NCBI RefSeq assembly: GCF_019879105.1
Contig: NZ_CP082249.1
Coordinates: 1,798,001-1,862,000 of the forward strand
DNA from: Natrinema sp. SYSU A 869
Lineage (GTDB): Archaea > Halobacteriota > Halobacteria > Halobacteriales > Natrialbaceae
Direction of reading: 5' to 3'
DNA length: 64,000 bases
Part shown: one piece after another, positions 34,431-47,001 of the stretch
How positions within the stretch are numbered: position 1 is the first letter of the stretch
Layout of the letters: each line of letters starts with the position of its first letter
The notes under the pieces: model-generated
The model's database searches: none
What the model was told of the DNA's origin: nothing
What the model saw: the letters and a program-made list of their open reading frames with translations, nothing else
Position numbers and translations under genes: made by a program

Positions 34431-35498
34431 ATGGCGCAGGCAACTCAGGAATTCGGCGAATGGCCGTTGAAACGCCTGATGACGGAGGTCGTCGGCTCGG
34501 GCCCAAAATCGGCCGACGACATGAACCGTGAGCAGGCCCGCGAGGCCTTCCAGCGGATTCTGGCCGGCGAACCCGACGCGACCACGCTCGGTGCGTTCTG
34601 GCTGGCCAACCGCTGGAAGCGCAACAACCCCGAGGAGCTGGCGGCCTACACCGACGTGATGCGCGAGGAGTCGGTCGTCACCGCCGAGCCGGACTGCGAT
34701 CCGGTCGACTGCGGCGCGAACTACGACGGCAAGCATAGTTCGGCCGTCCTCGGCGTCGGTGCCGGTATCGTCGCCGCCGCAGCAGGGACGCCGATCGTCG
34801 TCCACTCGGGCGACCGCGTTCCGACGCAGAAGGCAACGGCGTACAAACACGTCCTCGAGGAACTCGGCATTCAGACGGAACTCGAGCCTGCGGAGAGCGC
34901 GGACATGGTCGACGAGACCGGCTTCGGCTTCTACTACCAGCCCACGTTCAACCCCGGGATTCAGGACCTCTACGACCGGCGCGATGAGATGGGCGTTCGA
35001 ACGTTCGTCAACACGATCGAAACCGTTGCCAACCCCGCGAACGCCGACGTCCACCTGGGCTCGTTCTACCATCTCACCTTCGCGAAGAAGATGACCGATC
35101 TCATGGAAGCGAGCGCGCAACTCGACTACTCCCGCGCCATCTTCTTCCAGGGGATGGAGGGCTACGACGACATCCGTCCCGGTTACACGAAGGTGGCCGA
35201 GTGGGACGAGGGCGAGGAGTTAGCGGACTACGAGATCGAGACCGCCGAGTACGGCATGGCGATGGAAAACGAGGACCTCGAGGTCGACGACGTGACCGCC
35301 GACTCCGCCTCGATCACCGAGGCAGTGCTGGCCGGCGACCGCGAGGACCACTTCGCCGACGCCATCGCCCTCAACGGTGCGTTCCGGATGTACGCCCGTC
35401 AGGACGTCGACAGTCTCGAGGACGGCCTCGAGCGGGCCCGCGAGGTCATTTCGGACGGCAGCGCGGAAGCCGTGGTTGAGGACCTCCGAGCGTTCTGA
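34431..35498 (+). CDS. TrpD2/YbiB-like anthranilate phosphoribosyltransferase family protein
   Basis: ATG 34431 gives 355 residues; the nine-residue extension upstream is basic and less likely. The fold is that of nucleoside phosphorylase/TrpD enzymes: an N-terminal helical part with DDMNREQAREAFQRILAGEP, then DCGANYDGKHSSAVLG where true TrpD has the Gly-rich GTGGD loop, and FVNTIETVANPANA. The diverged PRPP loop points to the TrpD2 group, some of which bind nucleic acid instead of making tryptophan, rather than to biosynthetic TrpD. No other trp gene is near. Substrate unknown. Confidence 0.82.
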   Translation: MAQATQEFGEWPLKRLMTEVVGSGPKSADDMNREQAREAFQRILAGEPDATTLGAFWLANRWKRNNPEELAAYTDVMREESVVTAEPDCDPVDCGANYDGKHSSAVLGVGAGIVAAAAGTPIVVHSGDRVPTQKATAYKHVLEELGIQTELEPAESADMVDETGFGFYYQPTFNPGIQDLYDRRDEMGVRTFVNTIETVANPANADVHLGSFYHLTFAKKMTDLMEASAQLDYSRAIFFQGMEGYDDIRPGYTKVAEWDEGEELADYEIETAEYGMAMENEDLEVDDVTADSASITEAVLAGDREDHFADAIALNGAFRMYARQDVDSLEDGLERAREVISDGSAEAVVEDLRAF

Positions 35499-35977: not shown

Positions 35978-36775
35978 ATGGACGACTCACTGGACACCGT
36001 CTCGGTATCGTTCGACGAGGAACGCGGCATCGGCACGCTCACGATGAACCGCCCGGACGCGTTGAACGCACTGAACGAGCAGCTCAGGGACGACATCATC
36101 GCGGGGCTCGAACTGCTCGAGGAGCGAAACGAGGAGAGCGACGGCGTCGCCCTACGAGCCGTCGTGCTCGAGGGGGCCGGCGAGAAGGCCTTCTGTGCGG
36201 GTGCGGATATCGGTGGCTTCTCCGCGGAGTCGGCCGGTGGCTCCTCGGCCCGCTCGCACTACGATTTCATCCGGGACTTCCCCGCCCCCGTCATCGCGAA
36301 GATCGACGGCTACTGTCTCGGCGGCGGCCTCGAGACCGCGCTAGCCTGTGATTTCCGGCTAGCCAGCGAGGGCTCGACGTTCGGCTTCCCCGAAGTGAAC
36401 CTCGGCATCCTCCCCGGTGCCGGCGGCGTCCAGTACGTCACGAAGCTGGCCGGTCCCGCCGTCGCGAAGGAACTGGCGATGACCGGCGAACACATCTCGG
36501 CTGCGCGAGCGGACGAAGAGGGAATCGTCAACCACGTCTACGCCGACGGTGAGTTCGAGGCAGAAGTCGACGCGTTCGTCACCGATCTGGCCGGCCAGGC
36601 ACCGCTAGCGATTCAGGCGATCAAGCAGTCCGCAGATATGGCGGTTCACTCCGGGCTCGAGGAGGGGCTGGAATACGACCGCCAACTCTTCGAAGGGCTC
36701 CTCCAGACTGAGGACCACGCTGAGGGCGCGGCGGCGTTCTCCGAGGACCGCGAGCCCGAGTTCGAAGGGAAGTAA
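35978..36775 (+). CDS. enoyl-CoA hydratase/isomerase family protein
   Basis: A protein of 265 residues, normal for crotonases. The oxyanion-hole segments are KAFCAGADIGGF and GYCLGGGLETALACDFRLA. Both catalytic Glu appear to be present, in LASEGSTFG and in FPEVNLGILPGAGG. The C-terminal helical region with AIKQSADMAVHSGLEEGLEY is standard. It hydrates trans-2-enoyl-CoA in beta-oxidation. It is the first plus-strand gene of an acyl-CoA block; the dehydrogenase for the next step is encoded 300 bases on, in the opposite direction. Confidence 0.93.
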   Translation: MDDSLDTVSVSFDEERGIGTLTMNRPDALNALNEQLRDDIIAGLELLEERNEESDGVALRAVVLEGAGEKAFCAGADIGGFSAESAGGSSARSHYDFIRDFPAPVIAKIDGYCLGGGLETALACDFRLASEGSTFGFPEVNLGILPGAGGVQYVTKLAGPAVAKELAMTGEHISAARADEEGIVNHVYADGEFEAEVDAFVTDLAGQAPLAIQAIKQSADMAVHSGLEEGLEYDRQLFEGLLQTEDHAEGAAAFSEDREPEFEGK

Positions 36776-37916: not shown

Positions 37917-37924
37917 ATTTAATA
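37917..37924 (+). promoter_or_regulatory. TATA box of the R2lox gene
   Basis: ATTTAATA lies about 27 bases before ATG 37947, fitting a leaderless promoter. It stands in the 116-base divergent region shared with the 3-hydroxyacyl-CoA dehydrogenase gene. Confidence 0.6.
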
Positions 37925-37946: not shown

Positions 37947-38879
37947 ATGGCAACGGAGTACACGCCGACTGAGATGATGGATCGGGAGTCCAGATCGAAC
38001 CGCTACTACCGCAACGCGGTCGAGCGCCACTGGGATCCCGGCGAGATCGACCTCGAGAGAGACGTCGAGAACCTGCTGGCACATATCGATGCGTCAGACG
38101 AATACGACCGAGAATCCTGGTACGGAACGCTCAACGGCATCGCGAAGTTCGGAGCGGGCGAGGACGCGGTCACCGAGGACCTCGCGCCGCTGGGGGCCGT
38201 CCTCGATGACATCGACGATCAGCTGTTTCTGACGACACAGATGTACGAGGAGGCCAAACACGCGGACTTCTTCGATCGCTACTGGCGGGAAGTCATCTGG
38301 ACTGTCGAAGACGAACTGGGCTGGGACCGATCGAATCCCCGCCATGAGCGATGGTTCAACGACCCGTACATCGAACTGTTCGACCGCAACCGGACGGCGC
38401 AGTTCCGGCTGCTCGAGGAGGACACCCCCGAAAACCGGGCGAACGCCTACTGTCACTACCACCTCACGGTCGAGGGAATCCTCGCCCAGACGGGCTACTA
38501 CGGGATGCAGACCTCCTACGGCGGCGAGTTCGAGGGGCTTCCGCATCTTCCGGGGCTTGTCCAGGGCTTTACGAAGATCCGCAGCGACGAGGGTCGCCAC
38601 GTTGGCTTCGGGATGAACCAACTCAAGAAGCTCATCGCTGAGGGGGTCGATCCCGAACTCATCCGGGAGACGGTCGAGGACCTCGTCCCGCTCGTGCAGG
38701 GAATCACCGAGGACAACCGGTACCAGCCTGACGATCCCGAGGAGCGCGTCGGCTTAGCAGACGGGAAGCTGGCCGAATACGCAGTCGAGAAACATACCGA
38801 CCGAATGCGACAGATCACGGACGCCACGGCGGACATTCCGGACGTCGATGAGTTGGTGGCGCTCGAGGGCGACGACTGA
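37947..38879 (+). CDS. R2-like ligand-binding oxidase (R2lox)
   Basis: A protein of 310 residues of the ferritin-like fold. All dimetal ligands of the R2lox group can be placed: Glu72 (GEDAV), Glu102 and His105 (EEAKH), Glu176 (LTVEG), Glu215 and His218 (DEGRH). Val75 and Tyr171 occupy the positions of the Tyr-Val ether cross-link that marks R2lox off from ribonucleotide reductase R2. R2lox proteins assemble a Mn/Fe centre, bind a long-chain fatty acid at it and activate oxygen; the natural reaction is unknown. Here the gene is divergent from a 3-hydroxyacyl-CoA dehydrogenase and 82 bases ahead of a racemase-like gene, which suggests an acyl or lipid substrate. Confidence 0.92.
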   Translation: MATEYTPTEMMDRESRSNRYYRNAVERHWDPGEIDLERDVENLLAHIDASDEYDRESWYGTLNGIAKFGAGEDAVTEDLAPLGAVLDDIDDQLFLTTQMYEEAKHADFFDRYWREVIWTVEDELGWDRSNPRHERWFNDPYIELFDRNRTAQFRLLEEDTPENRANAYCHYHLTVEGILAQTGYYGMQTSYGGEFEGLPHLPGLVQGFTKIRSDEGRHVGFGMNQLKKLIAEGVDPELIRETVEDLVPLVQGITEDNRYQPDDPEERVGLADGKLAEYAVEKHTDRMRQITDATADIPDVDELVALEGDD

Positions 38880-38961: not shown

Positions 38962-40125
38962 ATGCAGCTCGATTCGGTTCGAATACTCGATCTCTCGCGC
39001 CTGCTACCGGGGCCGTACGCGACGCAACTGCTCGCCGACGCAGGTGCCGACGTGGTGAAAGTGGAGGACACCGACACGGGCGATTACGCCCGCCACACGC
39101 CGCCGATGACCGAGCGCGACGTCGGCGCACTGTTCGACAGCGTCAATCGCGGCAAGCGGAGCATCGCGCTCGACCTGAAATCGGGGGCGGGGCGGACCGC
39201 CTTCTACCGACTTGTCGAAGAGGCAGACGTCGTCTTCGAGCAGTTTCGGCCCGGTGTCGCAGAGCGCCTCGAGATCGACTATGAGACGCTCACGGAATAC
39301 AACGAGGACCTCGTCTACTGCTCGCTGTCGGGCTACGGCCAGACGGGCCCGGACGCCGAGCGCGCGGGTCACGACCTCAACTACATCGGTGTTGCGGGTC
39401 TGCTGGATATGACCCGCGAGAACGAGTCGATGGCCCCACAGATCCCGGGTTACCAGATCGGCGACCTCGGCGGCGGCCTGTTCGCCGCCTTCTCAATCGT
39501 CGGTGGCCTCCTGTCTCGCGAACTGGGCAACGGCGGCGAGTACGTCGACGTGGCCATGACCGATGTAGTCGCCTCCTTCTCGCAGGCGATTTCCTTCGAG
39601 GCGCTGACCGGCGACGATCCGCGACCGGGTGAGACGGCACTTACCGGAAAATTCCCCTGGTACGACGTCTACGAGACCGCCGGTGGGCGATACGTGACCC
39701 TCGCCGCACTCGAGCCGAAGTTCTGGACCGCCTTCTGCGAGGAGGTCGGCCGGGAGGAACTCCTCGACGCTCACGGCACCGACGACCCGGCCGAACTGGC
39801 GGCCGTCCGCGAGGAACTCGAGGCGCTGTTCGCGAGCCGCTCGAGAGATGCGTGGCTCGAGGACCTGAGCGACGAGACGATGGTCGGACCGGTGTGTACG
39901 CCGGCCGAGACCGTCGAACACCCACAGCTCGAGGCCCGCGAGTTGATCGAGCGGCCGGACGACGCGCCGCCGCGGGTCGGCTTCCCCGCGATGGGAACGA
40001 ACGCCCCGGAGAGCCGCGACGAGTCGGTACCGGAGCACGGGGAGCATACCGACGAACTGCTCGCGTCGGTCGGGTACGACGAGAGCGAGCGGGACGCCCT
40101 CCGCGAGTCGGGGGCCGTCCGCTGA
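38962..40125 (+). CDS. alpha-methylacyl-CoA racemase-like protein (CoA-transferase family III fold)
   Basis: A protein of 387 residues. LDLSRLLPGPYATQLLADAG and VVKVEDTDTGDYAR start the family III CoA-transferase fold. The residues expected in alpha-methylacyl-CoA racemases appear: His137 in AGHDLNYIGVAG, Asp168 in YQIGDLGGG and Glu251 in LAALEPKFW. True CoA-transferases have a nucleophilic Asp here and lack this His, so a racemase is favoured. Such enzymes invert 2-methyl-branched acyl-CoAs so that beta-oxidation of isoprenoid chains can continue. The gene is preceded by TGATACC direct repeats at 38937 and 38955. Confidence 0.85.
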   Translation: MQLDSVRILDLSRLLPGPYATQLLADAGADVVKVEDTDTGDYARHTPPMTERDVGALFDSVNRGKRSIALDLKSGAGRTAFYRLVEEADVVFEQFRPGVAERLEIDYETLTEYNEDLVYCSLSGYGQTGPDAERAGHDLNYIGVAGLLDMTRENESMAPQIPGYQIGDLGGGLFAAFSIVGGLLSRELGNGGEYVDVAMTDVVASFSQAISFEALTGDDPRPGETALTGKFPWYDVYETAGGRYVTLAALEPKFWTAFCEEVGREELLDAHGTDDPAELAAVREELEALFASRSRDAWLEDLSDETMVGPVCTPAETVEHPQLEARELIERPDDAPPRVGFPAMGTNAPESRDESVPEHGEHTDELLASVGYDESERDALRESGAVR

Positions 40126-40198
40126 GAGCCGTTCGGTCGGGAGGGCGGCGTACGCACCCTAAATCATAAGGTACTGGACGAAATCAGTGGAGACGACT

Positions 40199-41839
40199 AT
40201 GATGGGTGTCGAGTTAACACTTGACAAGATACTCGAGCGGGCGGTCGACCTGTTCCCCGACCGGGAACTGGTGACGAAACTGCCCGACGGGAGCACGCAC
40301 CGGTATACGTACGCTGACGCGTACGGACGGATCAACCAACTCGCGGGCGCGCTTGACGACCTCGGTCTCGAGGCCGGCGACCGGGTCGGCGTCGTCGCGA
40401 CGAACCACTACCGCCACTTCGAACTCTACTTCGGCCCGGCGTGTTCGGGGCGGTCGATCCACATGTGCAACATGCGGCTGCCCGACCACCACTTCGTTCA
40501 CACGGTCGAGGACGCCGAGGATCGGGTGATCTTCGTCGATCCAGAACTCATCGAGAAAGTCGAAGCTAACGCCGACGACCTCGAGACGGTCGAGCAGTAC
40601 GTCGTCCTCGACGACGAGGTGCCCGAGACGAGTCTCGAGCCGGTGACGGACTACGAGTCGTTGCTCTCCGGCCAGTCGACCGAGTACGAGTGGCCAGACA
40701 TCGACGAGGATGCGGAGTACGGCATGTGTCACACCTCGGGGACCACGGGGCTGCCGAAGGGTGTCCCCTACTCCCACCGGGCGATGTACCTCCATAGCAT
40801 CATGTGCGGCCATACGGATGCCAATGGGATCGGCGAGGACGACGTCGTCCTGCCGGTGGTTCCGATGTTCCACGCCAACGGCTGGGGGACACCCTACGCC
40901 GCGACGTTCGTCGGCGCGAAACAAGTCTTCCCCTCGGTCCAAACCGATCCCGAATCGATCGCCCGCCTGATCGACGAGGAGGACGTGACGTTCTCAGCGG
41001 CGGTGCCGACCATCTGGCTCGAGATGGCCGAATTCTTAGACGAGAATCCCGAGGTCGATATCTCGAACATCGACCGGCTGACGGTCGGCGGCTCCGCGCC
41101 GCCCGAGTCGCTCATCCGGACGTACGACGAGAAGTACGACGCGCCGATCATTCAGGGGTGGGGGATGACCGAGACCTCACCGCTCGGTACGCTCAGCACA
41201 CTCCGCACGGAGGTCGCCGACCTCCCGAAGGACGAGCAGTACGAGTACCGCGCGAAGGCCGGCCTTCCCGTCCCGGGGATGCAGACGCGGATCATCGACG
41301 ACGACGGCGAGGCGGTGCCCGCCGACGGGGAGACGATGGGCGAGTTGCAGGTTCGCAGCCCCTGGGTAACCGACCACTATCACAACCGGCCCGAGGAGAA
41401 CGAGCAGGCGTTCACCGAGGACGGCTACCTCCGGACCGGCGACATCGCTACCCGCGACGAGGTGGGCTACGTCGACGTCGTCGACCGCGATAAGGACGTG
41501 ATCAAGTCCGGCGGCGAGTGGATCTCCTCGGTGCAACTCGAGAACGAACTCATGGCCCACGAGGACGTCAGCGAGGCGACGGTCATCGCGGTCGAGCACG
41601 AGCGCTGGCAGGAGCGACCCATGGCGATCGCGGTTCCGCGAGATGGGGCCGAACTCACCGCGGACGACCTCGAGGCCCACCTCGGCGAGACGTTCCCCTC
41701 GTGGTGGCTGCCCGACGTCTACGAGTTCATCGACGAGATTCCGAAGACATCCACCGGAAAGTTCGACAAGAAGACGCTCCGGGACCAGTTCGACGTGGTC
41801 CTCGAGGCCGAGGACGACGAATCGGCACCCCAGCAGTGA
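40199..41839 (+). CDS. AMP-forming acyl-CoA ligase
   Basis: ATG 40199 (or 40202) is preferred to GTG 40187; about 546 residues. The ATP site is TSGTTGLPKGVPYSHR (about 177-192), the acyl pocket region QGWGMTETSP, and the hinge YLRTGDIATRDEVGYVDVVD; the catalytic Lys is in TSTGKFDKK near the end. Full-length ANL-superfamily enzyme activating a carboxylic acid with ATP and CoA. Medium- to long-chain or branched acids are likely given its neighbours, but chain preference cannot be read. Follows the racemase-like gene in the same direction. Confidence 0.93.
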   Translation: MMGVELTLDKILERAVDLFPDRELVTKLPDGSTHRYTYADAYGRINQLAGALDDLGLEAGDRVGVVATNHYRHFELYFGPACSGRSIHMCNMRLPDHHFVHTVEDAEDRVIFVDPELIEKVEANADDLETVEQYVVLDDEVPETSLEPVTDYESLLSGQSTEYEWPDIDEDAEYGMCHTSGTTGLPKGVPYSHRAMYLHSIMCGHTDANGIGEDDVVLPVVPMFHANGWGTPYAATFVGAKQVFPSVQTDPESIARLIDEEDVTFSAAVPTIWLEMAEFLDENPEVDISNIDRLTVGGSAPPESLIRTYDEKYDAPIIQGWGMTETSPLGTLSTLRTEVADLPKDEQYEYRAKAGLPVPGMQTRIIDDDGEAVPADGETMGELQVRSPWVTDHYHNRPEENEQAFTEDGYLRTGDIATRDEVGYVDVVDRDKDVIKSGGEWISSVQLENELMAHEDVSEATVIAVEHERWQERPMAIAVPRDGAELTADDLEAHLGETFPSWWLPDVYEFIDEIPKTSTGKFDKKTLRDQFDVVLEAEDDESAPQQ

Positions 41840-41971: not shown

Positions 41972-43408
41972 ATGGTCACACACCTCACAGACACGACTGC
42001 CGCCGGGCTCGCGAGAGCGATTCGGGACGGCGAGTATACACCGACCGAGGTCGTCGACGCCACCCTCGAGCGCATCCACGAACGGAACGATCGGACGAAC
42101 GCCTTCATCACCGTCACGGACGACCTGGCCCGCGAGATGGCCGAAGAGGCCGAACGAGCGATCGCGGACGGCGAGCCGCTCGGGCCGCTCCACGGCGTCC
42201 CCGTCGCGATCAAGGACCTCGACGACGTCGAAGGGGTCCGGACGACCTCCGGCTCCCTGCTCTTCGAGGACCGCATCGCCGACTCGGATTCGCCGTTCGT
42301 CGCTCGGTTGAAGGCGGCGGGCGCGATCGTCGTCGGGAAGACGAACACGCCCGAGTTCGGGCTCGGGACGACGACCGACAACCGTATCGTCGGGCCGACG
42401 GGAACGCCGTTCAACCTCGACCGCGTCTCAGGCGGCTCGTCCGGCGGGGCCGGCGCGGCGCTCGCCGACGGGCTCGTACCGCTCGCACCAGGCTCGGACG
42501 CGGGCGGCTCGGTCCGGATTCCGGCGAGTTTCTGCGGCGTATACGGACTCAAGCCCACGCAGGGAGTGATCCCGAACGTCAGCCGGCCGAACGGGTTTGC
42601 GAGCCACACACCGTTTTCCACTGTGGGACCGATGGCACGGACGGTCGAAGACGCGGCCCTCTCGCTGGACGTGATGGCGGGGACCCATCCGCGCGATCCC
42701 TTCTCGGTCCCGAAGCGGAGCGAGTACCGCGCCGCCATCGACCGTCCCATCGACGAGCTGTCGATCGCCTACAGCCCGGATATGGGTACCTATCCCGTCG
42801 ATCCCGACGTGCGCGAGGTGCTCGACGACGCTGTCGCGGCGTTCGAGCGTGCCGGCGCGACCGTCGACGCGGTCGATCCGGCTCTAGGACACGATAACGA
42901 GGAGATACTGGATGCCTACTACGCGATGGCGACCGTCCGGTGGCAGTCGCTGCTGGACGGTCTCGAGAACGAGGGCTTCGACCCGCGAGGCGAGGATCGC
43001 GACCGCCTGCGGCCGTATCTCGTCGACCTTATCGTGGACGCCGACGAACCGACTACGCGGGAGTACAAGCGCGCGGACGTCGTTCGGACGCGGGTTCTCG
43101 ACGGGTTGGCGGAGCTCTTCGCGGAGTACGAACTCCTCGTGACGGCGACGGTGGGGACGACGCCGTTCCCCCACGGCGAGGAACCCGAGGCGATTGACGG
43201 CGTCGAGATCGAACCGCTCCGGGGCTGGGTGCTCACGCAGCCGTACAACCTCACCGGCCATCCGGCGGCCTCGATTCCGGCCGGCTCCGTCGACGGGCTC
43301 CCCGTCGGGATGCAGATCGCAGGCCGGCGACACGCCGACGATGAGGTTATCGCCGCCAGTGCCGCCCTCGAGCGCCAGCGGCCGTGGCGCGACGAGTATC
43401 CCGAGTGA
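41972..43408 (+). CDS. amidase signature family hydrolase
   Basis: A protein of 478 residues. The Ser-cis-Ser-Lys triad is visible: Lys81 in VAIKDLDD, the GGSSGG loop at about 154-159, and nucleophile Ser180 in SDAGGSVRIP. VVGKTNTPEFG is also typical. It lacks the GatA context (no gatB or gatC), so it is a catabolic amidase rather than the tRNA amidotransferase. It may release a carboxylic acid from an amide for the CoA ligase encoded just upstream (inference). Confidence 0.92.
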   Translation: MVTHLTDTTAAGLARAIRDGEYTPTEVVDATLERIHERNDRTNAFITVTDDLAREMAEEAERAIADGEPLGPLHGVPVAIKDLDDVEGVRTTSGSLLFEDRIADSDSPFVARLKAAGAIVVGKTNTPEFGLGTTTDNRIVGPTGTPFNLDRVSGGSSGGAGAALADGLVPLAPGSDAGGSVRIPASFCGVYGLKPTQGVIPNVSRPNGFASHTPFSTVGPMARTVEDAALSLDVMAGTHPRDPFSVPKRSEYRAAIDRPIDELSIAYSPDMGTYPVDPDVREVLDDAVAAFERAGATVDAVDPALGHDNEEILDAYYAMATVRWQSLLDGLENEGFDPRGEDRDRLRPYLVDLIVDADEPTTREYKRADVVRTRVLDGLAELFAEYELLVTATVGTTPFPHGEEPEAIDGVEIEPLRGWVLTQPYNLTGHPAASIPAGSVDGLPVGMQIAGRRHADDEVIAASAALERQRPWRDEYPE

Positions 43409-43438: not shown

Positions 43439-44223
43439 TTAGAAGCTGAAGAGGTCGATTCCGCCGGTCACGCCGACTACCTGCCCGGTGACGTAGGAGG
43501 CCTGCTCCGAGCAGAGGTAGGTAACCATGTTTGCGACGTCTTCTTCCGTCCCGAGGTGGCGCATCGGGGTGGCCGCGGCGATGCGAGCGTAGTACTCATC
43601 GACGTTTTCTCGGAGTTCGTCGGGACTCATATCGGCCCAGTCGCCGACGACGATGTTGGGCGCGATGACGTTCGAGGTGACCCCCGATTGGGCCCCTCGA
43701 GGGCCATCGTTCGCCCGACGCCGATCATAGCGGCCTTCGTCGCGGAGTAGGAGAACTGGCCGAAGCCACCGTACCAGCCGGCCATCGAGGACATATTGAT
43801 GATCCGTCCCCAGCCTCGCTCGCACATTCGGGGGAACAGTTCCTTGCTGATGTTGTACGTCCCCGTCAGGTTGATTTCGACGTCGCGGTCCCAGATTCCG
43901 TCGTCGTAGTCGCCAATCCGCGAGCGCGCGTCGACCATCGCCGCGTTGTTGACGAGGATGTCCACGCCGCCGAAGGCGTCGCGAACCTCGGCCATCGAGT
44001 CAGCAACGTCCTCGCGATCGGTGAGGTCGCACTCGAGCGCCATCGCTTCACCGCTATCAGCGGTTTCGTTGATTTCGTCGGCGACCTCCGCCGCGCCGTC
44101 CGCGTCGACGTCGAGGACGACGACGTTCGCGCCCTCAGCCGCGAGGAGTCTGCAGTCGGCGCTTCCGATTCGACCGGCACCGCCGGTGACGACGGCAATC
44201 CTGTCCTGAATTCCGAGATCCAT
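43439..44223 (-). pseudogene. short-chain dehydrogenase/reductase, interrupted by a one-base frameshift
   Basis: From ATG 44223 the frame reads a standard SDR: VVTGGAGRIGSADCRLLAAE, VLVNNAAMVD, INMSSMAG with the catalytic Ser, and YSATKAA with Tyr and Lys. At the run of four C (plus strand, 43693-43696) the frame is lost; from there another frame continues smoothly as AQSGVTSNVIAPNIVVGDWA through GHLGTEEDVA-like sequence to TGGIDLFSF. Adding one base to the run restores 261 residues, the normal SDR length. Either a sequencing error or a recent loss. As an intact enzyme it would be a 3-hydroxyacyl-CoA or similar NAD(P) oxidoreductase of this block. Confidence 0.88.
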
Positions 44224-44384
44224 CTCCCGAGCAAATACTTCGGTATTTGACTTAACAATTGTGGGGCGGTAACGATGTTCGGATCGAGTCCCGACTCGGA
44301 TCACGCCGGAAAGAGTCCAGTACGGACGATCACGAATTTATGCACAACATCTATGATGAATCGCAAAATACTCAATCACACATC

Positions 44385-45590
44385 ATGAACTCCGCAGTCA
44401 TCGTCGACGCCGTCCGAACGCCGTTCGGGAAACGCGGCGGTTCGTTCAGGGATACGCATCCACAGGATCTCGCCGCGGAACCGCTCGAGGCGCTGCGCGA
44501 ACGCAACGGGTTCGAGCCGGAGACGATCGAGGACGTCATCTACGGCTGTGTGACGCCGGTCGACGAACAGGGACTCAACATTGGTCGGCTCGCGCCGATG
44601 GTCGCGGGCTGGGGCGATATTGTTCCCGGGGTACAGCTCAATCGGATGTGTGGGTCGGGCCAGCAGGCGGCCAACTTCGCCGCGGCGAACGTCATGGCCG
44701 GCCAGCACGATGTGCTCATCGCCGGCGGCGTCGAGCACATGACCCGCGTCCCGATGGGGTCGGACGGCGACAAGCCGACGGACACGTACTTCGAGCACTT
44801 CGACGAACTGACGACGCAGGGCGAAGGTGCCGAACGCATCGCCGAGGAGTACGACCTGACGCGCACGGAACTCGACGAAATCGCCGCCGATTCCCAGCGG
44901 CGCTGGAAAGAGGCCTGGGACGAGGGCCGCTACGACGACCAGATCACGCCGGTCGAGACCGAACTCGGCGACGAGGGTAGCGAGTCGCAAAACGACACGG
45001 ACAGTCGAACGGGGAGTGAAACGACCCGTGAGACGGTAGTCGTCGAGCAGGACGAACACCCCCGTCCCGGTACCGACGAGGAGACGCTCTCCGAACTGCC
45101 GCTGTCGTTCCGCGAGGAGGGTGAGGGCTTCCATCATCCCGGAAACTCCTCGGGGATCGTCGACGGCTCCTGCGCGCTGCTCATCACGAGCGAGGAGGCC
45201 GCCGAGGAACACGGCTGGGAACCGATGGCCCGCATCGTCCAGACCGAGGTCGTCGGCGTCGATCCCGTGACGATGTTGAAGGGGCCGATTCCCGCGACCG
45301 AGAACGTCCTCGAGAAGGCCGACATGACCGTGAGCGACATCGACCTGTTCGAGGTCAACGAGGCGTTCGCGTCGGTCGTCGGAGCCTGGCTCGAGGAAAC
45401 GGGCGCGTCGTGGGAGGACGTTAACGTCAACGGCGGCGCGATCGCCCACGGCCACCCGCTAGGCGCGACCGGCGCAATGCTCCTGACGAAACTGGCCCAC
45501 GAACTCGAGCGAACCGGTCAGGACACCGCGCTGTCGACGATGTGTATCGGCTTCGGCCAGGGCGTCGCGACGATCCTCGAGCGGGTCTGA
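44385..45590 (+). CDS. acetyl-CoA acetyltransferase (thiolase)
   Basis: ATG 44385 gives 401 residues and lies behind an AAAATACT promoter-like element; the open frame upstream to 44259 covers the divergent promoter region. Nucleophile Cys89 is in NRMCGSGQQA; the second active-site residues are in AIAHGHPLGATGA (His near 357) and TMCIGFGQG (Cys near 387). An acidic insertion of about 35 residues (roughly 205-240) sits in the loop domain. It cleaves 3-ketoacyl-CoA with CoA, the last step of beta-oxidation, or condenses acetyl-CoA. Divergent from the SDR gene. Confidence 0.94.
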   Translation: MNSAVIVDAVRTPFGKRGGSFRDTHPQDLAAEPLEALRERNGFEPETIEDVIYGCVTPVDEQGLNIGRLAPMVAGWGDIVPGVQLNRMCGSGQQAANFAAANVMAGQHDVLIAGGVEHMTRVPMGSDGDKPTDTYFEHFDELTTQGEGAERIAEEYDLTRTELDEIAADSQRRWKEAWDEGRYDDQITPVETELGDEGSESQNDTDSRTGSETTRETVVVEQDEHPRPGTDEETLSELPLSFREEGEGFHHPGNSSGIVDGSCALLITSEEAAEEHGWEPMARIVQTEVVGVDPVTMLKGPIPATENVLEKADMTVSDIDLFEVNEAFASVVGAWLEETGASWEDVNVNGGAIAHGHPLGATGAMLLTKLAHELERTGQDTALSTMCIGFGQGVATILERV

Positions 45591-45719: not shown

Positions 45720-45741
45720 CTTTACAATGCTGTATGCGATC

Positions 45742-47001
45742 ATGGGTGATATGGAGTACCACGACTCCGAGAAAGCGACGGAGGTCGCGAGTCGCGTAGC
45801 GGACTTCATGGACGAAGTCGTCATTCCGCGCGAGCGAGAGGCGCTCGCCACGGACGAGGACATCACCATGGACGAGATTGAGGACATGTGGGAGATGGCC
45901 AAAGAGCGCGATCTGTTCGCGCCGCAGGTGCCCGAGGAGTACGGCGGGCAGGGCCTGGACTTCAGCGACATGCTGCCGTCGTTCGAACAGGTCGGTCGTT
46001 CCCTGATCGGCGCGCTCGCGATCCGCGCGAACGCGCCTCAGGAGGGGAACATGCACACCTTAGAGATGGTCGGCACTGAGGAACAGAAAGAAGAATATCT
46101 TGGCCCACTCGTGCAGGGCGAAATTTCCTCGGCGTTCGCGATGACCGAGCCGAAGGTCGGTGCCGGCTCGGACCCGAAGATGCTCCAGAGCACTGCCATC
46201 AAGGACGGCGACGAGTGGGTCATCAACGCCCACAAGTGGTGGACCTCTGACGGACTAGACGCCGACTTCTATCTGTTGATGGCCCGGACCGATCTGGATG
46301 CCCACCCCTACGAGGGCACCTCGATCATTCTGGTGCCGCGCGACGCCGACGGCGTCGAAGTCCAGCGGAACATCCCCCACCTCGGCGGTCACGGGATCAC
46401 CGAACGAGAGGGCGGCCACGCCGAAGTGAAGTTCGACAACGTCCGCGTCCCCGTCGAGAACACCATCGGCGAGGAAGGGGAAGGGTTCCGCATCGCCCAG
46501 ATGCGACTCGGCGGCGGCCGACTGACCCACTGCATGCGCTACTCCGGGATGGCCGAGCGCTCACTCGACATCGCGAAGGCCTACCTACAGGAGCGCGAGG
46601 CCTTCGGCACGAAACTCGAGGACAAGCAGGCGCTGCGCCATCGTATCGCTGACGCCGAGACGCGCCTGCACGCCGCTCGCTGTATGGTCCGCCACGCCGC
46701 GCGCGAACTCGACCGCAACGATGCCCGTATCGAGGTCGCGATGTCGAAGATGTTCACCGCGAACGTCACCAACGAGACCATCGATCTCGCCCTGCAGTGT
46801 TGTGGCGGCAACGGGATCGGCAAGGACCTGCCGATCGCTCACTTCTACGAGAACGTCCGCGCGTTCCGCATCGTCGACGGAGCCGACGAGGTCCATCGCC
46901 GCTCGATCGCCCGCTGGGCATTCGAGGACGTCGACGAGAGCGAAATCGAGAACACCCTGCAGTTCGACGAGGAGCTGCGGATCGACGCGCTCGACGAGTA
47001 A
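45742..47001 (+). CDS. acyl-CoA dehydrogenase, ACAD10/11-like
   Basis: ATG 45742 fits the TATA box and gives 419 residues; 45727 and 45751 are alternatives. FAD and substrate segments are FAMTEPKVGAGSDPK and HKWWTSDGLDADF; RLTHCMRYSGMAERSLDIA and CCGGNGIGKDLPI follow. Near the end FRIVDGADEVHRRSIARWAF replaces the usual IYEGTxEI, as in the ACAD10/11 group, which works on very long or 4-hydroxylated acyl-CoAs in animals. It catalyses alpha,beta-dehydrogenation. Same direction as the thiolase. Confidence 0.92.
   Translation: MGDMEYHDSEKATEVASRVADFMDEVVIPREREALATDEDITMDEIEDMWEMAKERDLFAPQVPEEYGGQGLDFSDMLPSFEQVGRSLIGALAIRANAPQEGNMHTLEMVGTEEQKEEYLGPLVQGEISSAFAMTEPKVGAGSDPKMLQSTAIKDGDEWVINAHKWWTSDGLDADFYLLMARTDLDAHPYEGTSIILVPRDADGVEVQRNIPHLGGHGITEREGGHAEVKFDNVRVPVENTIGEEGEGFRIAQMRLGGGRLTHCMRYSGMAERSLDIAKAYLQEREAFGTKLEDKQALRHRIADAETRLHAARCMVRHAARELDRNDARIEVAMSKMFTANVTNETIDLALQCCGGNGIGKDLPIAHFYENVRAFRIVDGADEVHRRSIARWAFEDVDESEIENTLQFDEELRIDALDE

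Follow-up and report, generated by a model that had tools for sequence, protein, structure and literature searches.

A haloarchaeal R2lox oxidase within a beta-oxidation island and its acyl-CoA ligase companion

The reading frame at 37947-38879 in Natrinema sp. SYSU A 869 encodes a genuine R2lox, a ferritin-fold oxidase, as confirmed by its family identity, residue set and fold. Across related genomes, the most faithful partner of this gene is an acyl-CoA ligase, not the racemase-like gene that directly follows it. The window, i.e. the whole 64,000-nucleotide stretch analysed, places R2lox within a beta-oxidation island, the features of which are listed in Table 1.

Table 1. Features of the window in and around the R2lox gene.
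Feature	Position	Strand	Basis or remark
Enoyl-CoA hydratase	35978..36775	+	Family match
3-Hydroxyacyl-CoA dehydrogenase (HADH), 245 aa	37093..37830	-	Family match
TTTAATA, TATA-like box	37918..37924	+	-29 to -23 from the R2lox ATG; putative function
R2lox gene	37947..38879	+	310 aa, ATG to stop, stop included; reading frame, family match, residue map, model
Ligand E72 (38160-38162) and cross-link V75 (38169-38171) codons	38160..38171	+	Alignment with Gk E69, V72
Ligand E102 and H105 codons	38250..38261	+	Alignment with Gk
Y171 (38457), ligand E176 (38472) and cavity Y184 (38496) codons	38457..38498	+	Alignment with Gk Y162, E167, Y175
Ligand E215 and H218 codons	38589..38600	+	Alignment with Gk
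CaiB/BaiF family III protein (H137, D168, E251)	38962..40125	+	Family match, MCR alignment
Acyl-CoA ligase, long-chain type	40199..41839	+	GTG start at 40187 also possible
Amidase-signature protein	41972..43408	+	Family match
SDR (FabG-like), frameshift-split here	43442..44223	-	261 aa intact in relatives; comparison with relatives
Thiolase	44340..45590	+	Family match
Acyl-CoA dehydrogenase	45727..47001	+	Family match

Identity and distribution of the R2lox protein

The best solved relatives of the protein are GkR2loxI of the bacterium Geobacillus kaustophilus (GK2771, PDB 4HR0) and other R2lox proteins. Residue alignment with 4HR0, at about 29-30% identity over the structure, maps nine key residues one to one. 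The ligands E72, E102, H105, E176, E215, and H218 correspond to GkR2loxI E69, E102, H105, E167, E202, and H205, while V75 and Y171 occupy the cross-link positions V72 and Y162, and Y184 matches Y175, the conserved cavity tyrosine described as an R2lox feature (PMC4118035). This match is not due to chance, since all nine are conserved in every haloarchaeal R2lox inspected at 55-100% identity and are invariant across a 35-row alignment of haloarchaeal R2lox. Two-electron Mn/Fe chemistry, a fatty-acid ligand and the Val-Tyr link are established for other R2lox (PMC4118035, PMC6060897), with the cross-link valine stated as fully conserved (PMC6060897). The present protein is predicted to house a Mn/Fe (or Fe/Fe) site and would be expected to form the V75-Y171 ether cross-link.

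Among family models, the protein best matches five of NCBIfam for R2lox, NF006198-NF006202, scoring 138, 103, 98, 85, and 75 bits, all under the curated cut-offs, with the best reaching 138 bits against the 194 required. These are models of particular R2lox subgroups, and the paralogs in the same genome as well as other haloarchaeal R2lox clades likewise fall under the cut-offs. With the AlphaFold model (pLDDT 88, pTM 0.87) as query, Foldseek ranks 1-34 and VIA ranks 1-27 were all occupied by R2lox, ahead of every ribonucleotide reductase (RNR) R2. VIA Z values for R2lox entries ranged from 27.7 to 30.9, including those of Mycobacterium tuberculosis (3EE4/4AC8), Saccharopolyspora (7QBP), and Sulfolobus (6QRZ, 7QBK), which have the same fold at 22-27% identity, and the best RNR R2 reached 25.3. 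R2lox shares its fold superfamily with RNR R2 and scores weakly against Pfam Ribonuc_red_sm, yet that the product is an R2 subunit is hardly conceivable, given the structural ranking, a PF00268 score of 27.2 bits below the gathering cut-off of 33.6, the presence of the V75/Y171 pair, and a single PF02867 (RNR large subunit) match in the genome (C3:3520820), located 1.7 Mb off.

R2lox-like proteins are present in 133 of 391 sampled Halobacteria genomes and in 39 of 86 genera. This genome contains the window gene, a 58% paralog, a 30% paralog, and one copy broken across two frames. In a quickly built tree, in which the Gk fragment and the far paralogs have long branches and which was used only for the Natrialbaceae clade and the paralog split, the window R2lox lies in a well-supported Natrialbaceae clade separate from the 58% paralog, with haloarchaeal proteins apart from GkR2loxI. 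Members of the window clade occur in 49 of 125 Natrialbaceae genomes.

The other copies have surroundings of their own. The broken copy (L089:8638-9356, genome contig C2), spread over two reading frames, adjoins a zinc-type alcohol dehydrogenase gene, and the 30% paralog (L090:8767-9693), which keeps all nine key residues, adjoins a class V aminotransferase gene. The paralog of this genome that belongs to another clade (L088:8140-8775) and the Halorientalis R2lox (L201/L203:7196-7901) stand directly beside HTH_10 (Bat-like) regulators, suggesting dedicated regulation of these other-clade proteins.

The beta-oxidation island and the companions of R2lox

In the window, the enoyl-CoA hydratase and the oppositely oriented HADH precede R2lox, followed by CaiB, the acyl-CoA ligase, the amidase, the SDR, the thiolase, and the acyl-CoA dehydrogenase. 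The first-pass annotation had described an R2lox with all six ligands and the Val75/Tyr171 pair, set in an acyl-CoA locus between HADH and a racemase-like gene, and this description agrees with the residue alignment, the structural ranking and the gene order. In most other Natrinema genomes, R2lox is immediately preceded by a small membrane protein and an amino-acid-type permease, and the ligase is followed by an acyl-CoA dehydrogenase. HADH possesses about half of the usual C-terminal domain, as do nearly all of its orthologs, which are likewise short. The SDR frameshift represents either a true loss or a sequencing error. In Natrinema, the island almost always includes a TrpD2-like phosphoribosyltransferase-family gene (34431-35498, +), whether R2lox is there or not.

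Since scans for bacterial promoters and terminators say nothing meaningful about archaeal DNA, upstream regions of orthologs were compared instead. A TTTAATA-like box recurs at about the same position in most clade A orthologs, regardless of the upstream gene. The interval from -29 to -23 is the TATA-box spacing of a leaderless haloarchaeal transcript; R2lox therefore probably has its own promoter and is not a mere passenger of an upstream operon, and its mRNA is predicted to be leaderless. Because of this conserved box, R2lox resembles a portable module inserted into beta-oxidation islands.

Orthologs of the acyl-CoA ligase share at least 81% identity and are well separated from the next best proteins at 66%. 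They are found in 26 of 125 Natrialbaceae genomes, each of which also has R2lox at a distance of no more than 6.1 kb; no genome without R2lox has one. Plain hypergeometric values ignore relatedness; stratification within genus, which lessens but does not remove this problem and in which only the listed genomes were assigned to genera, gave 26 observed against 18.5 expected co-occurrences (p about 1e-5). The gap between R2lox and ligase varies from 164 to 6101 bases with differing intervening genes, indicating that the pair was kept while other genes were swapped. Among solved structures, the ligase best matches the long-chain fatty acyl-CoA synthetase 1ULT/1V26, scoring 520 bits along almost its full length, which marks the haloarchaeal ligase as a relative of this enzyme, of putative long-chain type. 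The conserved linkage anticipated for other genomes thus exists for the ligase, and this faithful partnership favours ordinary long-chain acids or alkanes over branched chains.

A second companion is the amino-acid-type permease, whose ortholog (at least 76% identity) is found in 25 of 125 genomes, every one of them with R2lox, adjacent in 21 and elsewhere in the genome in four (permuted within genus, p about 4e-5). The permease (L036:9032-10728) has an 88-aa membrane partner; it is confined to genomes with this R2lox even where unlinked, and is absent from the genome of the window.

One explanation treats R2lox and its companions as accessory genes of a metabolic island prone to recombination, linked by hitch-hiking with no common pathway. 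The patchy distribution of R2lox, its several different settings inside one family and its own promoter-like box are consistent with such a history. We nevertheless consider it unlikely, as the ligase and permease orthologs never occur without R2lox in 125 genomes, the four genomes with an unlinked permease still have R2lox, and the gene order between R2lox and ligase varies.

The CaiB neighbour and the branched-chain substrate

Residue alignment places the catalytic H126, D156, and E241 of MCR (1X74) on H137, D168, and E251 of CaiB, making the racemase-like label of the first-pass annotation a fair one, with the reaction itself putative. The overall best solved match of CaiB is a formyl-CoA transferase entry, MCR ranking third by a small margin, so its overall score is close to those of CoA-transferases.

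From this neighbour, an isoprenoid or branched acyl chain (phytanic/pristanic type) had been proposed as the substrate of R2lox, with the racemase setting the 2-methyl configuration before beta-oxidation. Haloarchaeal lipids are isoprenoid, the three MCR catalytic residues are kept, and CaiB lies 77-244 bases from R2lox in 22 genomes, all of which suit the proposal. The comparative evidence, however, makes it improbable. Among Natrinema genomes, 21 of the 22 that have R2lox carry the racemase ortholog, as do all seven that lack R2lox. Since the R2lox-less genomes all retain it, no association is seen when permuted within genus (p = 0.70). In R2lox-less Natrinema, TrpD2 or HADH stands directly before CaiB. 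The racemase as a specific partner of R2lox was accordingly rejected by the within-genus test and the R2lox-less sites.

Beyond Natrinema and one Halostagnicola genome, the CaiB proteins near R2lox are 64-70% relatives, which are commoner in R2lox-less genomes or unlinked. In Natronorubrum and relatives, R2lox sits in a junction between c9 and a different CaiB gene (L054, L093). Several R2lox-less genomes have c9 and CaiB directly joined (87-108 bases). This adjacency does not depend on R2lox, and the R2lox-CaiB proximity in Natronorubrum and relatives is thereby explained without a shared substrate; the junction alone is compatible with either gain or loss of R2lox. No such CaiB was found beside R2lox in Natrialba, the g5 genomes or the other haloarchaeal R2lox clades inspected, and no PhyH-type phytanoyl-CoA hydroxylase was found in the genome, other routes being possible. 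The proposed branched substrate is therefore not borne out, and the linkage expected across genomes fails for the racemase. The membrane gene c9 (165 aa), a neighbour of R2lox in Natrialba, Natronorubrum and others, was also considered as a partner and set aside as an uninformative core gene (96 of 125 genomes).

Proposed function and published R2lox systems

We propose that R2lox is a Mn/Fe oxidase acting on a long-chain aliphatic substrate, which is thereby readied for activation with CoA and for beta-oxidation; we judge the chances of this reading to be about evenly balanced. R2lox would assemble a Mn/Fe (or Fe/Fe) site, and O2 activation would produce the V75-Y171 ether link. The mature enzyme would then hydroxylate or desaturate a long-chain aliphatic molecule bound in its channel, a two-electron oxidation yielding a fatty acid or a precursor soon converted to one. 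This product could pass to the linked acyl-CoA ligase and on to the surrounding beta-oxidation enzymes. The metal content, the cross-link, the reaction, the substrate chain and the sequential action of R2lox and ligase are the conditional parts of this scheme, while the beta-oxidation setting, the tight ligase association, the conserved promoter-like box, and the existence of similar islands with and without R2lox are direct observations.

The proposal is supported by the residues identical to GkR2loxI, the ligase link, and the distant-clade R2lox of three genomes (L059, L061, L074), whose direct neighbour is an enoyl-CoA hydratase and/or an acyl-CoA dehydrogenase. It also parallels the bacterial cluster, as the GkR2loxI gene clusters with acyl-CoA ligase and beta-oxidation genes (PMC10867098). 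Counting against it, 23 of 49 genomes with window-clade R2lox are without the ligase ortholog, including all seven Natrialba and all four g5 genomes, in which R2lox has other surroundings. Ligase and R2lox can also be inherited together because a DNA block hitch-hikes as a physical unit, none of the genes next to R2lox was recognised as an electron-transfer partner, and the published alkane activity comes from crude lysate. The main unexplained fact is that the permease tracks R2lox equally well, for which fatty-acid chemistry gives no account.

The statement that the R2lox substrate is unknown is partly out of date. Crude extract with GkR2loxI is reported to break down C10-C22 alkanes, a ligand double mutant only partly reducing alkane loss (PMC10867098, 2024), and a haloarchaeal R2lox from Halorientalis is induced by hexadecane according to Kumar et al. 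2020 as cited there. An alkane hydroxylase would convert alkane to alcohol, with unlinked dehydrogenases yielding the acid and the linked ligase its CoA ester; the needs of such a route fit the ligase and beta-oxidation genes, and the broken R2lox copy of this genome adjoins a zinc alcohol dehydrogenase gene. We regard this specific route as unlikely. In the R2lox cluster of the window, neither an alcohol nor an aldehyde dehydrogenase was recognised, whereas the GkR2loxI neighbours include both, and known R2lox structures contain a bound fatty acid. The Halorientalis R2lox, though haloarchaeal and of the same family, belongs to a separate clade, is only about 50% identical in the copies compared here, and lies behind an HTH_10 regulator, unlike the window R2lox in its beta-oxidation island.

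A further reading, which we hold to be doubtful, starts from a transferable catabolic module comprising the permease pair, R2lox and a dedicated acyl-CoA ligase. The Natrialbaceae R2lox may catalyse its initial step, dependent on O2, and the module may serve one particular acid, possibly derived from an amino acid and distinct from both plain fatty acids and alkanes. If true, this would provide a new natural substrate class for R2lox.

The occurrence of R2lox in haloarchaea, its position beside beta-oxidation genes and its tie to alkanes are already published. A search of the literature, which excluded the two most relevant subscription papers, turned up neither the constant association with ligase and permease, nor the islands lacking R2lox, nor the conserved promoter-like box.

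The chemistry of the R2lox family is well studied, while its natural role is thinly supported. Assigning the racemase to the island and not to R2lox removes a misleading cue, and the ligase link provides a useful new lead. With two proteins found only alongside this R2lox across 125 genomes, the substrate question becomes testable on ordinary proteins, the range of the ligase being easy to measure.
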